Part shown: in pieces, positions 2,457 to 6,794 of the stretch
Position numbering within the stretch: position 1 is the first letter of the stretch
Layout: each line of letters opens with the position of its first letter
From: Zymoseptoria tritici IPO323
Taxonomy: Eukaryota; Ascomycota; Dothideomycetes; Mycosphaerellales; Mycosphaerellaceae
Direction: 5' to 3'
Length of the DNA: 64,000 bases
Assembly: GCF_000219625.1 (NCBI RefSeq)
Contig: NC_018208.1
Location: forward strand, 1,116,001-1,180,000
The notes under the pieces: generated by a model
What the model saw: only the letters and a program-made list of their open reading frames with translations
Told to the model about the DNA's origin: nothing
Database searches by the model: none
Program-made: the position numbers and the translations under genes

Positions 2457-2945
2457 ATGCTCTTCACTCAAAGCCTCACCCTCGTGGCCCTCCTCACCAC
2501 CTCCGCCCTCGCCTCTCCCCTTGCCCAGAACGGCGGCGGTACGGCCGGCACCACCGGACTCCGCAACAACTGCGACGGCTCCACATTCGTCCCCGTGACC
2601 GGCAGCGCCGGCAACGCCCCATCCAAGTGGGACTGCCAGCTGCTCCGCGACGGCTACATCGCCAAACAGAACAAGTCCTGGCTCATCTCCGGCCCTCGCA
2701 TCATTGGTACCGTTCGCACTTGCCAATTCTCCGCGACGGTGGATGTCTCCGGTACGTCAGGCTGGATCGGACGGGACGACATTATGGATCTAATGAAGGA
2801 CTCGTTGAACTTGTGGAAGGATGGCGAAACGACGCAGGTTCAGGGCGCGATGCAGGTGGGTGAGTCGGGCGATGTGAATTGTGTTGCTGGGAAGAATGGA
2901 GAGGGGCAGAAGGTTCGTATTGCTTGGACTCTGGGGCATTCGTAG
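2457..2945 (+). CDS. Secreted Hce2-domain (Ecp2-type) effector-like protein
   Basis: Intronless 162-aa protein. Residues 1-19 form a signal peptide (hydrophobic core LTLVALLTTSALA, cleavage near ALAS-PLA). The rest matches the Hce2 pattern (homologues of Cladosporium fulvum Ecp2): CDGSTFV at about 39-45, a DCQLL block, a central TCQFS, an IGRDDIMDLMKDSL segment and a final NCVAG followed by the C-terminal strand. Four cysteines remain after the signal peptide, as expected for two disulfides. Ecp2-family proteins are secreted into the host apoplast and some promote necrosis; that role is family knowledge and is not shown here. The neighbours are unrelated, so no effector cluster is evident. 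Confidence 0.85.
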   Translation: MLFTQSLTLVALLTTSALASPLAQNGGGTAGTTGLRNNCDGSTFVPVTGSAGNAPSKWDCQLLRDGYIAKQNKSWLISGPRIIGTVRTCQFSATVDVSGTSGWIGRDDIMDLMKDSLNLWKDGETTQVQGAMQVGESGDVNCVAGKNGEGQKVRIAWTLGHS

Positions 2946-3354
2946 GTGGGAGGCCGAATAGGGGGGGTGATGAGCAGAGAGGTCGTCGCAGAGGTGGACC
3001 GGACCAGGAGATCAGTTTCGCCGATATATATATATGCTGATAGAACGGTGTACATCAGTCGGCTTTGATTGTCCACGGCAGAATTTCATCTGGTCGATCA
3101 TGTCCAATTGGTTTTTATTTATCTTCTGAGTTGGTTGATACTGGCCTGTCGTTGTCAAGACAAAGACTGAATGTATAGCCCAATACGTGTTGGTTTGGTT
3201 GTCTACACGAGGCTAAATCCCGCACGTGACGTCCACGAATTACAGCCTCAGGCCAAAAAAACATGACTCAGCTGAATAGTTTGATTGTGGGAGCTGCCGA
3301 GAGCCGCTAGTGAGTATAAGTATTTTCTTTCTCCCGCAACCCTCCGAGTCCAGC
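2946..3354. other. Intergenic; 3' region of Hce2 gene and presumed U2 promoter
   Basis: No ORF is worth calling. A TATA-like TATAAG at 3315-3320 lies about 35 nt before the inferred U2 5' end. An (AT)n run occurs at about 3024-3035. Confidence 0.4.
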
Positions 3355-3379
3355 AGCTCTTCTTTGCCTTTTGGCTTAG

Positions 3380-3435
3380 GTACGTTACACTTCGACCTCA
3401 ATTTTCTTCGACATCATGCTAACAGGACCATTCAG
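3380..3435 (+). other. Spliceosomal intron 1 inside U2 snRNA (56 nt)
   Basis: Starts GTACGT, has a perfect branch site GCTAAC at 3418-3423 and ends TTCAG at 3435. Removing it restores the universally conserved U2 string GGCTTAG-ATCAAG. An alternative AG at 3424-3425 would leave ten extra bases and break the U2 sequence. Confidence 0.92.
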
Positions 3436-3452
3436 ATCAAGTGTAGTATCTG

Positions 3453-3505
3453 GTATGCACCTTCCCGATCGAGCGCAATGCTCCTTCCTTGCTAACATCT
3501 CGCAG
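3453..3505 (+). other. Spliceosomal intron 2 inside U2 snRNA (53 nt)
   Basis: Starts GTATGC, branch site GCTAAC at 3491-3496, ends TCGCAG at 3505. Removal restores GTAGTATCTG-TTCTTTTCAG, the conserved junction between the branch-point recognition region and stem IIa. Confidence 0.92.
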
Positions 3506-3898
3506 TTCTTTTCAGTTTAATCTCTGAAACGTCACTACGGTGACATTCTATGATTATACTCATTTTTGGAACCAGCCCGGTGGCCGCTGAGCTTGCTCAT
3601 GTCACTGAGCACCGTGTCGCCAGTATAGCACTGCCTCTGGCTGACGCGAATCACTTTTTCATCTGCCTCTTCGCTGACTGCGAGGTTCAGAAGAAGAACA
3701 TGACTTTCTTTGCGCATGTCGTGGTGAGCTCTTGACACGTGGAATTACAGGCTGCGCTGCGATCCTCGCACCTCGCTGAGATACTGCTGTCAAATTGTCA
3801 AGACTGTTTGTTGACTACGAGGCAATCATCCTCTCTCCTCGCTAACAGAGCACCATAAACAAGCAGCCTCGATCGTTCGGTCCATCCAATACGAGCTC

Positions 3899-4684: not shown

Positions 4685-6794
4685 CTATCTCCGCCTTCCA
4701 GCTCCTCCACCACCTTCACCACCTCTATCAGCCAAACTCACCACCTCGCTGATTCCCGCAGCTTCCTGTTCATCCTCCAACGCCTGCACTTCCTCCCGAA
4801 CATCCCACCACTTCTGCTCTGCGCGGTCGAAAGCTTTCTTCCGAATCTCCTTCACGGAGCGGTCGTCAGGGTTGCGCTCATACTTCCGCGCCTCCAAGAT
4901 GACCTCTTGCCAGTCGTTGTTGGTTCGAGTGAAGAAGTCGCGCAGAGTCTCGAAAGGTCGAGGCATGGGAAGCTTGTCGTCCGTGGAGGCGGTGGCATCC
5001 TGCTCCATTTCCTCGGCCTCTGCTGCCGCGGCGGCATGAACAGCCGCTGCATGTTCGTCCGCAATTGATGTTGCTGGTGTGCTTGGTTCAGTACCCATCT
5101 CTTCGTCGGAGTCCGAGTCATCCGAGCCTTCTTCGTCATCCTCATCGCTATCTTCATCTTCGCTTCCTTGCCAGTCTTCGAGCTCACGCTTGAATACTTC
5201 CTTCACGCCGTCCAGCTTTCCAAGATCAATGGAGAACATCTCGTCGAAAGTATACTCCCGGTCACCTTTCTCAAAGGTACCACCAAAGAGGTACAGAGTA
5301 TCTTCTTGAACTGCCAAGGTGGTGTTGAAGCGAGGATGCGGCATTTCCCACATTACCGGCTTCTCGATCTTCGTCTCTTCGTCGTCGTCGTCTGCGGCTG
5401 CGACAGGTACATCAGTCATCTCTGTGTCATCTAGAGAACCTTTGTTCTCGATAAGAGCCAGGTTTCGCAGAAGCTCCTCCTCATCCGCTTTGCCTCTCCC
5501 ACGTCTCCGATCCGCTGCGGGAACGGCTTTCTTGCCTGAAGTCCTAGGTCTTCGTAGACCGAGTTGAAAGAAGCGATTGCGGTCAACATTGTAAGCATAG
5601 AGTAGATTGAAGAACTCGCTGTCAATGCCCTCCTCAGATTCTTCGACGTCATGCACGCCGCCGAAGGCGATACCACGACCCTTGTGATGGGCCATTGTCG
5701 CACCGGCCCGTGGCGGATTGGGTGAGTTGACTGGCTTCTTCCTCCTCTCCCATCTCACCGTGGGCGGTGTATTGACAGGTGCTTCAGCCGCTGGCGGAGT
5801 GACTCTCAGATACCATGTATCCTGATGGACCATCGGCTTCATGGTCACTCGCGAACCAGACTTGCCGGCTTTGGTGGACTTGATCGCCGTCGTAGCCTTG
5901 ACACGAGAGTAGCCTCCATATATGACCGCTCCTGTCTCATGAGGTAGTAATGAGAACGACGAGCGGGCATCCGGCTTCTGTGCCTGCGCCGGGAGGTTCA
6001 CCGCATGCCAGACATAACGCTGGGTATCGTACAGCCAGACGTCCTGCAAATACTTCGTCTGCTGGCTCGTGTCCTGGAAGCCTCCGAATAGGATGATGTA
6101 GTTCTTGAAGTATGTCATTCGATGGCCACTTCGAGCTGGCGGTCCTCCTTTGCCTTCCAGCTTGGTCCACTCTCTAGAGCTCGGGTCGAGTTTCCAGAAG
6201 CTAATTATCATGTCAGAGAACATCCGATTCGAAATTTTGGAAGATCTTAACTCGTTATAGTGGTAAAAGGTGCCCTGCTTCGGACTTGAGAACTCCCCGC
6301 CGAACATATAGATGCCGCCGGAGTTACCTCCCATGCACATGGCGTGTCCACTTCGTGGCAAGGGTGTATTCGGGCTGGTGACTTTTCGCCACGTATCCGT
6401 ATTCGTTTTGTAGACAAAGAGGTCGTTGAAGAAGGTCGCGAGAGCTCCATTGAAGTATTCTCCTCCAAAGAGGAACAGCTCATTGCTATTTGCTGGGGAT
6501 GCTACCAATGTGGCAGACGAGCGTGGCGATGGCGGCTCTGTTGAGACCTCAGTGACTTTGGTAAATGCTTCCTGCTGCTTTTGGTATGCCAGCAGCATGG
6601 CATCGAGGTCTGCATCCTCAGCGTCGCTATCATCGTCCTATCTCGTTGTTAGATAGAGTTCACAGCTCATGTGATCCAATCCTTGCCTTTTTCTTCAGTG
6701 ACAATTTCTTGTCTGACTTGTCTGACTTTTTCGCCTGCTTGGCCGCTTTGGCCGCCTTCTTTGCCGGATCCTTCTTCTTCTTATCCTTCGCCAT
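4685..6794 (-). CDS. Kelch-repeat protein, Kel3/KLHDC4-like
   Basis: Exons 6794-6687, 6637-6252 and 6200-4685 give 669 aa. The N-terminus MAKDKKKKDPAKKAAKAAK is a Lys/Ala-rich basic stretch followed by an acidic DDDSDAEDADLDA. About six kelch blades follow, each with FGG or YGG (FLFGGEY, IYMFGGEF, IILFGGF, VIYGGYS, IAFGGVHD, LYLFGGTF). Next come a long acidic region (EDEDSDEDDEEGSDDSDSDEE) and a C-terminal DUF4110-type helical domain (RPFETLRDFFTRTNNDWQ to QKWWDVREEVQALEDE). This order matches yeast Kel3 and animal KLHDC4; the exact function is poorly known. Intron 1 (6686-6638) uses a GC donor (AAG/GCAAGG) with branch CTAAC. Intron 2 (6251-6201, GTTAAG...TTAG) is 51 nt and in frame; removing it restores YNDFWKLD. 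Confidence 0.88.

Follow-up and report, generated by a model that had tools for sequence, protein, structure and literature searches.

A three-exon U2 snRNA gene, split by two short GT-AG introns, occupies positions 3355-3655 of the plus strand in a 64-kb stretch of DNA from the wheat-leaf fungus Zymoseptoria tritici IPO323 (C11 1116001-1180000), the whole of which was analyzed and is referred to here as the window. We consider it highly probable (roughly 0.9) that this locus is a U2 gene whose precursor would be spliced by pre-existing spliceosomes into normal U2 RNA. Across the genome, 17 introns of 49 to 60 nt were found at seven sites in 12 snRNA loci of the U1, U2, U4, and U6 families. 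A genome search for U2 with Rfam, in which the best 46 of 422 first-look candidates were scored, yielded at least five U2 loci: L001 (C3), L002 (C1), L003 (C5), L004 (C9), and the window gene itself, L005 (C11). L003, L004, and L005 have both introns, L001 has intron 2 alone, and L002 has none.

The initial annotation had proposed that U2 is interrupted here by two canonical spliceosomal introns. Exons, splice signals, and paralogs agree in supporting that proposal, and the exon-intron junctions (3379/3436 and 3452/3506) lie where it had placed them. Exon 1 (3355..3379), which contains the 5' end and stem I, was delimited from the Rfam U2 consensus and three paralogs, and its 5' end is approximate. 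Intron 1 (3380..3435; 56 nt; GTACGT...GCTAAC...CAG) has same-site counterparts in L003 and L004 and none in L001; its branch motif, GCTAAC, is at 3418..3423, with CTAAC 13 nt from the 3' end. Exon 2 (3436..3452) consists of the 17 nt ATCAAGTGTAGTATCTG and contains the branch-site-pairing GTAGTA. Intron 2 (3453..3505; 53 nt; GTATGC...GCTAAC...CAG) has same-site counterparts in L001, L003, and L004, and its GCTAAC is at 3491..3496, with CTAAC 10 nt from the 3' end. Both introns have the features of the major type, namely, GT-AG ends and a CTRAC near the AG. Exon 3 (3506..3655) holds stems IIa/IIb, the Sm site, and stems III and IV. Stem IIa was placed at 3510..3529 by the Rfam alignment and was not chosen in the minimum-energy fold of the whole joined window RNA. 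The Sm site CATTTTTGG is at 3561..3569, stem III is at 3574..3611, and stem IV is at 3612..3648. Three exons running from the U2 5' domain to stem IV, as originally described, were recovered. The end given for the gene, 3646, falls inside stem IV, and the Rfam match extends to 3655.

Unspliced window DNA gave a single match to the Rfam U2 model RF00004 at gathering scores, at 3484-3655 (81.9 bits versus a cut-off of 46; E 1.3e-14). The model populates the 5' domain with intron-2 sequence, since the actual 5' exons are located farther upstream. When the exons are joined, 57 of 67 positions match the Rfam consensus 5' domain, and stem I and GUAGUA come to lie in one RNA with stem IIa, which is not the case in the unspliced DNA. 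The Sm site and stems III and IV are present, with one C-A mismatch in stem III that is common to L003 and L004. The window U2 is the most diverged of the four intron-bearing copies (95% versus L004 over 146 nt). In its stem III, double changes have swapped two outer pairs as compared with the three sister copies. These doubly compensated pairs argue for a selected RNA, and the window U2 is, judged from its sequence, probably one. The stem IV loop, the binding place of U2B'', reads AUAGCACUG in the window copy and AUUGCACUG in the three sister copies and L002, a change of U to A. Given this change and its overall divergence, the window copy could be weakly used or decaying, and it may be weaker than its sisters.

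When exon 3 of L004 was used as a DNA query, four places in the genome were matched at 95 to 100% identity, and these are the four intron-bearing loci; at the sensitivity of this search, no intronless canonical U2 was found in the assembly. Introns diverge more than exons in all six pairs among the four copies (23 to 46% versus 1.6 to 7.7% of columns). The intron columns that differ number 14/58, 25/63, 30/65, 42/123, 40/118, and 26/115; the exon columns for the same pairs, in the same order, number 3/193, 5/194, 15/196, 4/194, 14/195, and 14/195 (Fisher p 2e-4 to 1e-15, the six pairs not being independent of one another). Exon 2 is flanked by introns on both sides in three copies, yet all 17 of its positions are identical in all four. 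Read from these alignments, the pattern is one of selected exons and freer introns. Chance is excluded by this intron divergence together with the presence of the same exons in three paralogs elsewhere, where an intron interrupts the second site in three of three and the first site in two of three.

Comparison of the introns outside their splice signals provided some indication of their history. Intron 2 of L001 resembles that of L003, and intron 2 of L004 resembles that of L005 (0 of 1,000 shuffles each), while no likeness is detectable between the two groups (observed scores reached by 77 to 947 of 1,000 shuffles). Intron 2 has therefore either diverged beyond recognition between the groups or been exchanged or gained twice at one site. 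For the three copies of intron 1, pairwise likeness was reached by 9, 15, and 46 of 1,000 shuffles. Since L001 lacks intron 1 though its intron 2 groups with that of L003, loss of intron 1 in L001 is the simpler reading.

Searches for the other spliceosomal RNA families scored the best first-look candidates alone (U1, 41 of 596; U4, 41 of 1857; U5, 46 of 1623; U6, 47 of 1853), and the snRNA copy numbers are therefore lower bounds. At least five U1 loci were found, with scores of 27 to 41 bits, under the Rfam cut-off of 69.5. They share the 5' end ATACTTACCT (after joining where it is split), the loop TGCATTGCACA, and the Sm site AATTTTTG. Four of the five have introns: L009 and L010 at site B, which precedes the Sm region; L011 at site A; and L012 at both. 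The L011 and L012 genes lie on the minus strand of chromosome 1 (matches 4059634-4059792 and 802453-802550). Site A interrupts the 5'-splice-site-pairing AUACUU|ACCU, and both introns there are GC-AG, with weak donors (TT|GCAAGT and TT|GCATGC). If the usual U1 5' start is used, the first exon at site A would be about 6 nt long, which is unusual. The fifth U1 locus, L008 (L008:1501-1650, chromosome 1: 407149-407298, plus strand), is intronless and divergent and is the U1 counterpart of L002.

Four RF00015 matches were obtained for U4, and three full-length loci, L045, L046, and L047, were recognized on chromosomes 1, 6, and 7. In each, a single intron follows a first exon some 9 nt long. Joining the exons brought the energy of U4/U6 stem II to -19.0 to -22.3 kcal/mol, versus -13.4 to -15.3 unjoined, a gain of 5.6 to 7.5; shuffled versions of exon 1 reached the joined energy in 10, 23, and 14 of 2,000 cases. 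The short first exon is supported by this gain and by the 5' end of the budding-yeast U4. A further candidate, L048:1501-1576 (chromosome 3), was rejected as a full-length U4: it has 69 bases identical to L045, lacks the Sm site, the 3' element described below, and the intron, and on its sequence looks like a U4 fragment, a pseudogene.

The sole U6 locus detected, L027, lies on the minus strand of chromosome 8 (about 1401275-1401477) and has two introns in its core, at ACAGAGA|AG and GGC|CCC. To our knowledge, the U1 5' end ATACTTACCT and the U6 core ACAGAGAAGATTAGCATGGCCCCTGC are universal; both are restored when the exons are joined. No Rfam match to U6 was obtained in the genome at E 0.001. 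At E up to 10, RF00026 gave 11 matches, none above the cut-off of 44, and two of these are pieces of L027 (23.3 and 18.2 bits), which is all of the locus that the model sees. Standard annotation thus misses split snRNA genes. The other nine matches, two of them with slightly better scores (25.7 and 23.9 bits), were rejected as U6, as they lack ACAGAG and AGATTAGC. Eight of these nine, L034, L035, L037, and L040-L044, read as a single repeated sequence family with weak matches to the U6 model (15 to 26 bits) and are not U6. A contiguous U6 core was not found by pattern search allowing one mismatch; L007, the sole match to ACAGAGAAGATTAGCATG with one mismatch, was judged by eye to be unrelated. 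The pattern CCCCTGCACAAGGATGACACG had no genome match with three mismatches, and GAAACRATACAGAGAAG with two mismatches occurred at 17 places, L027 among them, while its reversed control occurred at 11. No intronless full-length U4 or U6 was found in these genome searches (Rfam best candidates and U6 patterns). For U5, the single RF00020 match, L006 (42.5 bits versus a cut-off of 40; E 2.5e-4), was set aside, as the surrounding 3.1 kb contains no 3' element; the U5 gene may be split too.

The RNA of the window gene is followed by a 3' element, TTTTCATC-hairpin-GAAGAAGA (3656..3697, plus strand), which occurs once in the window, at 3656. The element is common to the U1, U2, and U4 loci, where the second motif is GGAGAAGA: all 13 (5, 5, and 3, respectively, with L048 left out) have TTTTCATC, often a hairpin-capable stretch, and GGAGAAGA just after the RNA. 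Since the pattern was derived from the U1 and U2 loci, the three U4 loci constitute an independent test. Among 31 other loci no match was found, apart from L030-L033, which are repeats of U2 places. Seven of the 13 hairpins were folded; five had z-scores between -1.7 and -3.9, and the other two lay close to the values for their shuffles (-0.3 and -0.7). We regard the element as a putative 3'-end formation signal, and it is a possible handle for finding U5 and other Sm-class RNAs. Upstream of the gene, a conserved block (3264..3334, plus strand) with the TATA-like box GAGTATAAGTATTTTC at 3312-3327 is the predicted promoter; nearly all of it is common to L001 and L003, and part of it to L004. 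Farther out, an open reading frame upstream of U2 (window 2457-2945, plus strand) matches Pfam Hce2 (45.1 bits), described in Pfam as a putative necrosis-inducing effector family, and a Kelch-repeat protein with a DUF4110 domain is encoded downstream (window 4685-6598, minus strand).

The boundaries of the 17 snRNA introns were set by homology together with splice and branch signals. All 17 end in AG; 14 start with GT and three with GC. A CTRAC lies 10 to 19 nt from the 3' end in every one (17/17), whereas shuffles (n = 2,000) gave 0.5 on average and 4 at most. Several of the introns interrupt functional sequence, for example, the U1 5' end and the U6 ACAGAGA box. The initial annotation had described the signals of the two U2 introns as typical of mRNA introns in the window; on this point, a rough screen of the window for coding introns returned 28 candidates, some of them overlapping alternatives, versus 8 in reversed-sequence controls, and 15 of the 28 were 50 to 69 nt long.

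One account of where these introns came from is that introner-like elements landed in snRNA genes. It concerns origin and is compatible with the splicing explanation for U2. Such elements have been reported in Z. tritici and other Dothideomycetes (in a passage of PMC4457414), and the L012 U1 site-A intron and the L045 and L046 U4 introns, when taken together, outscore 200 of 200 shuffles. Between sites, however, likeness at the level of 2 of 200 shuffles or fewer was seen in just 2 of 120 pairs, both C-rich, and the shuffles handle C-rich stretches poorly; no pair of introns from different sites among the 17 is near-identical. At the U2 sites, the divergence of 23 to 46% between copies means that the introns are not fresh near-identical insertions. 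We therefore consider this origin rather unlikely. As a separate observation, the C-rich first introns of U1 (L012 site A) and U4 (L045 and L046) are alike, through either a common origin or a shared C-rich signal.

The initial annotation had named an intact intronless U2 gene elsewhere, accounting for all U2 RNA, as a finding that would count against it. Such a gene exists in part, namely, L002 (L002:1501-1680, chromosome 1: 2642896-2643075, plus strand), but this paralog is divergent and its stem II is different, and the introns of the other copies are thus not explained away. It is a full-length Rfam U2 match (87.6 bits) and retains stem I, AUCAAG, GUAGUA, the Sm site, and the 3' element. 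In stems III and IV, 24 of 25 pairs are kept, nine of them through changes on both sides (pairs mapped by hand); when the 3' partner was slid by 1 to 3 positions as a control, 5 to 7 of 14 pairs formed in stem III and 3 to 8 of 11 in stem IV. The canonical stem IIa/IIb sequence is gone, and both bases beside GUAGUA are changed. A hairpin drawn by eye, UUCG-AGG/CCU-CGAA, could take the place of stem II; the minimum-energy whole-molecule fold picks neither this hairpin nor stem IIa of the canonical copies. The sequence upstream of L002 differs from the conserved block of the other U2 loci. From these comparisons, L002 reads as an old, selected paralog and not as a processed copy of the other U2 genes.

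The new stem II sequence of L002 resembles the U12 stem-loop. However, no genome match to RF00007 was obtained at E up to 1 among the best 42 of 477 first-look candidates, the GUAGUA of L002 is intact, and, according to a passage of PMC10639083, convincing minor introns were not found in a survey of Ascomycota; on these grounds the U12 reading of L002 was dropped.

The retention in L002 of a full-length U2 match, GUAGUA, the Sm site, the 3' element, and nearly all stem III/IV pairs, all without introns, would fit a model in which L002 makes the working U2 and the intron-bearing copies are pseudogenes or marginal. We judge this very improbable, since evidence against it comes from the far better conservation of exons than of introns in the four intron-bearing copies, down to the invariant exon 2, from the loss in L002 of the canonical stem IIa/IIb sequence, and from the change there of both GUAGUA-flanking bases. 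Moreover, as no intronless full-length U4 or U6 emerged from the searches made, splicing of snRNAs looks to be needed anyway. Although snRNAs vary in length between lineages, it is hardly credible that the U2 insertions are retained expansion segments and not introns, given that seven of seven show GT...CTRAC...AG exactly where U2 homology stops, that they are far more variable in sequence than the exons, and that, if retained, they would separate stem I from the branch-site-pairing segment.

According to the splicing explanation, which we prefer, a precursor U2 transcript would be produced from the TATA-containing snRNA-type promoter, its two major-type introns would be removed by spliceosomes already present, and its 3' end would be formed at or near the hairpin element common to U1, U2, and U4 genes. 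The trimmed RNA would then be assembled with Sm and U2 proteins and put to use. Since every full-length U4 gene, the U6 gene, and all four canonical U2 genes that were found contain introns, new spliceosomes should depend on existing ones, a predicted loop in which the production of spliceosomes would itself require spliceosomes. This loop may be eased by the divergent U1 and U2 paralogs that lack introns. A bolder and quite tentative proposal is that of a self-dependent spliceosome, in which canonical U2, full-length U4, and U6 must first be spliced at or beside sequences that contact substrate or partner, with the intronless L008 and L002 as a second, splicing-independent set that might restart the loop, tune it, or act on just a subset of introns. 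The question raised is how spliceosomes are made when their RNA parts first need splicing.

Introns in snRNA genes are as such already known; what looks new here is their breadth, the introns in U4, for which we know of no precedent, and the intronless divergent paralogs. Introns in U1, U2, or U4 of an ascomycete did not appear in titles or abstract openings among the matches listed in a search of the open-licence PMC literature. The snRNA introns resemble the introner-like elements of Dothideomycetes (PMC4457414, in part) in belonging to the same fungal class and being short spliceosomal introns. Unlike those elements, the 17 include no near-identical copies at different sites.

The U6 intron of fission yeast was reportedly described by Tani and Ohshima in 1989, and other fungal U6 introns are said to have been described by Canzler et al. 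in 2016. Passages of PMC5832005 and PMC10484740 mention U6 introns in fission yeast and other fungi, and a passage of the former, a 2017 paper, says that no small structured RNAs besides U3 and U6 are "known to be often interrupted by an intron." As in those species, U6 is interrupted in Z. tritici, here by two introns; unlike in those cases, U1, U2, and U4 loci are split as well. The fission yeast U6 intron is taken, in part of PMC10484740, to have arisen by reverse splicing into an RNA near the spliceosome active site. With a finished ascomycete genome, 17 introns in four snRNA families, and intron-variable paralogs, this idea becomes testable across isolates and sister species. Intron-bearing and intronless paralogs of the fungal U3 snoRNA lie side by side in eight genomes, according to a passage of PMC5832005. 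Common to the two systems are mixed paralogs and short spliceosomal introns that interrupt a capped small RNA, but U3, unlike the U1, U2, U4, and U6 of Z. tritici, is not part of the spliceosome.

A further parallel is with Rhodotorula hasegawae, in which a U6 intron was reportedly described by Tani and Ohshima in 1991 and U1 and U5 introns are said to have been described in J Biochem in 1996. The U2 gene of this yeast also has an intron, according to the title of Takahashi et al. 1993. Both fungi have mRNA-type introns inside snRNA genes, although R. hasegawae is a basidiomycete yeast and Z. tritici a filamentous ascomycete. Z. tritici differs in that U2 has two introns, that paralogs vary in whether an intron is present, and that U4 is split as well.
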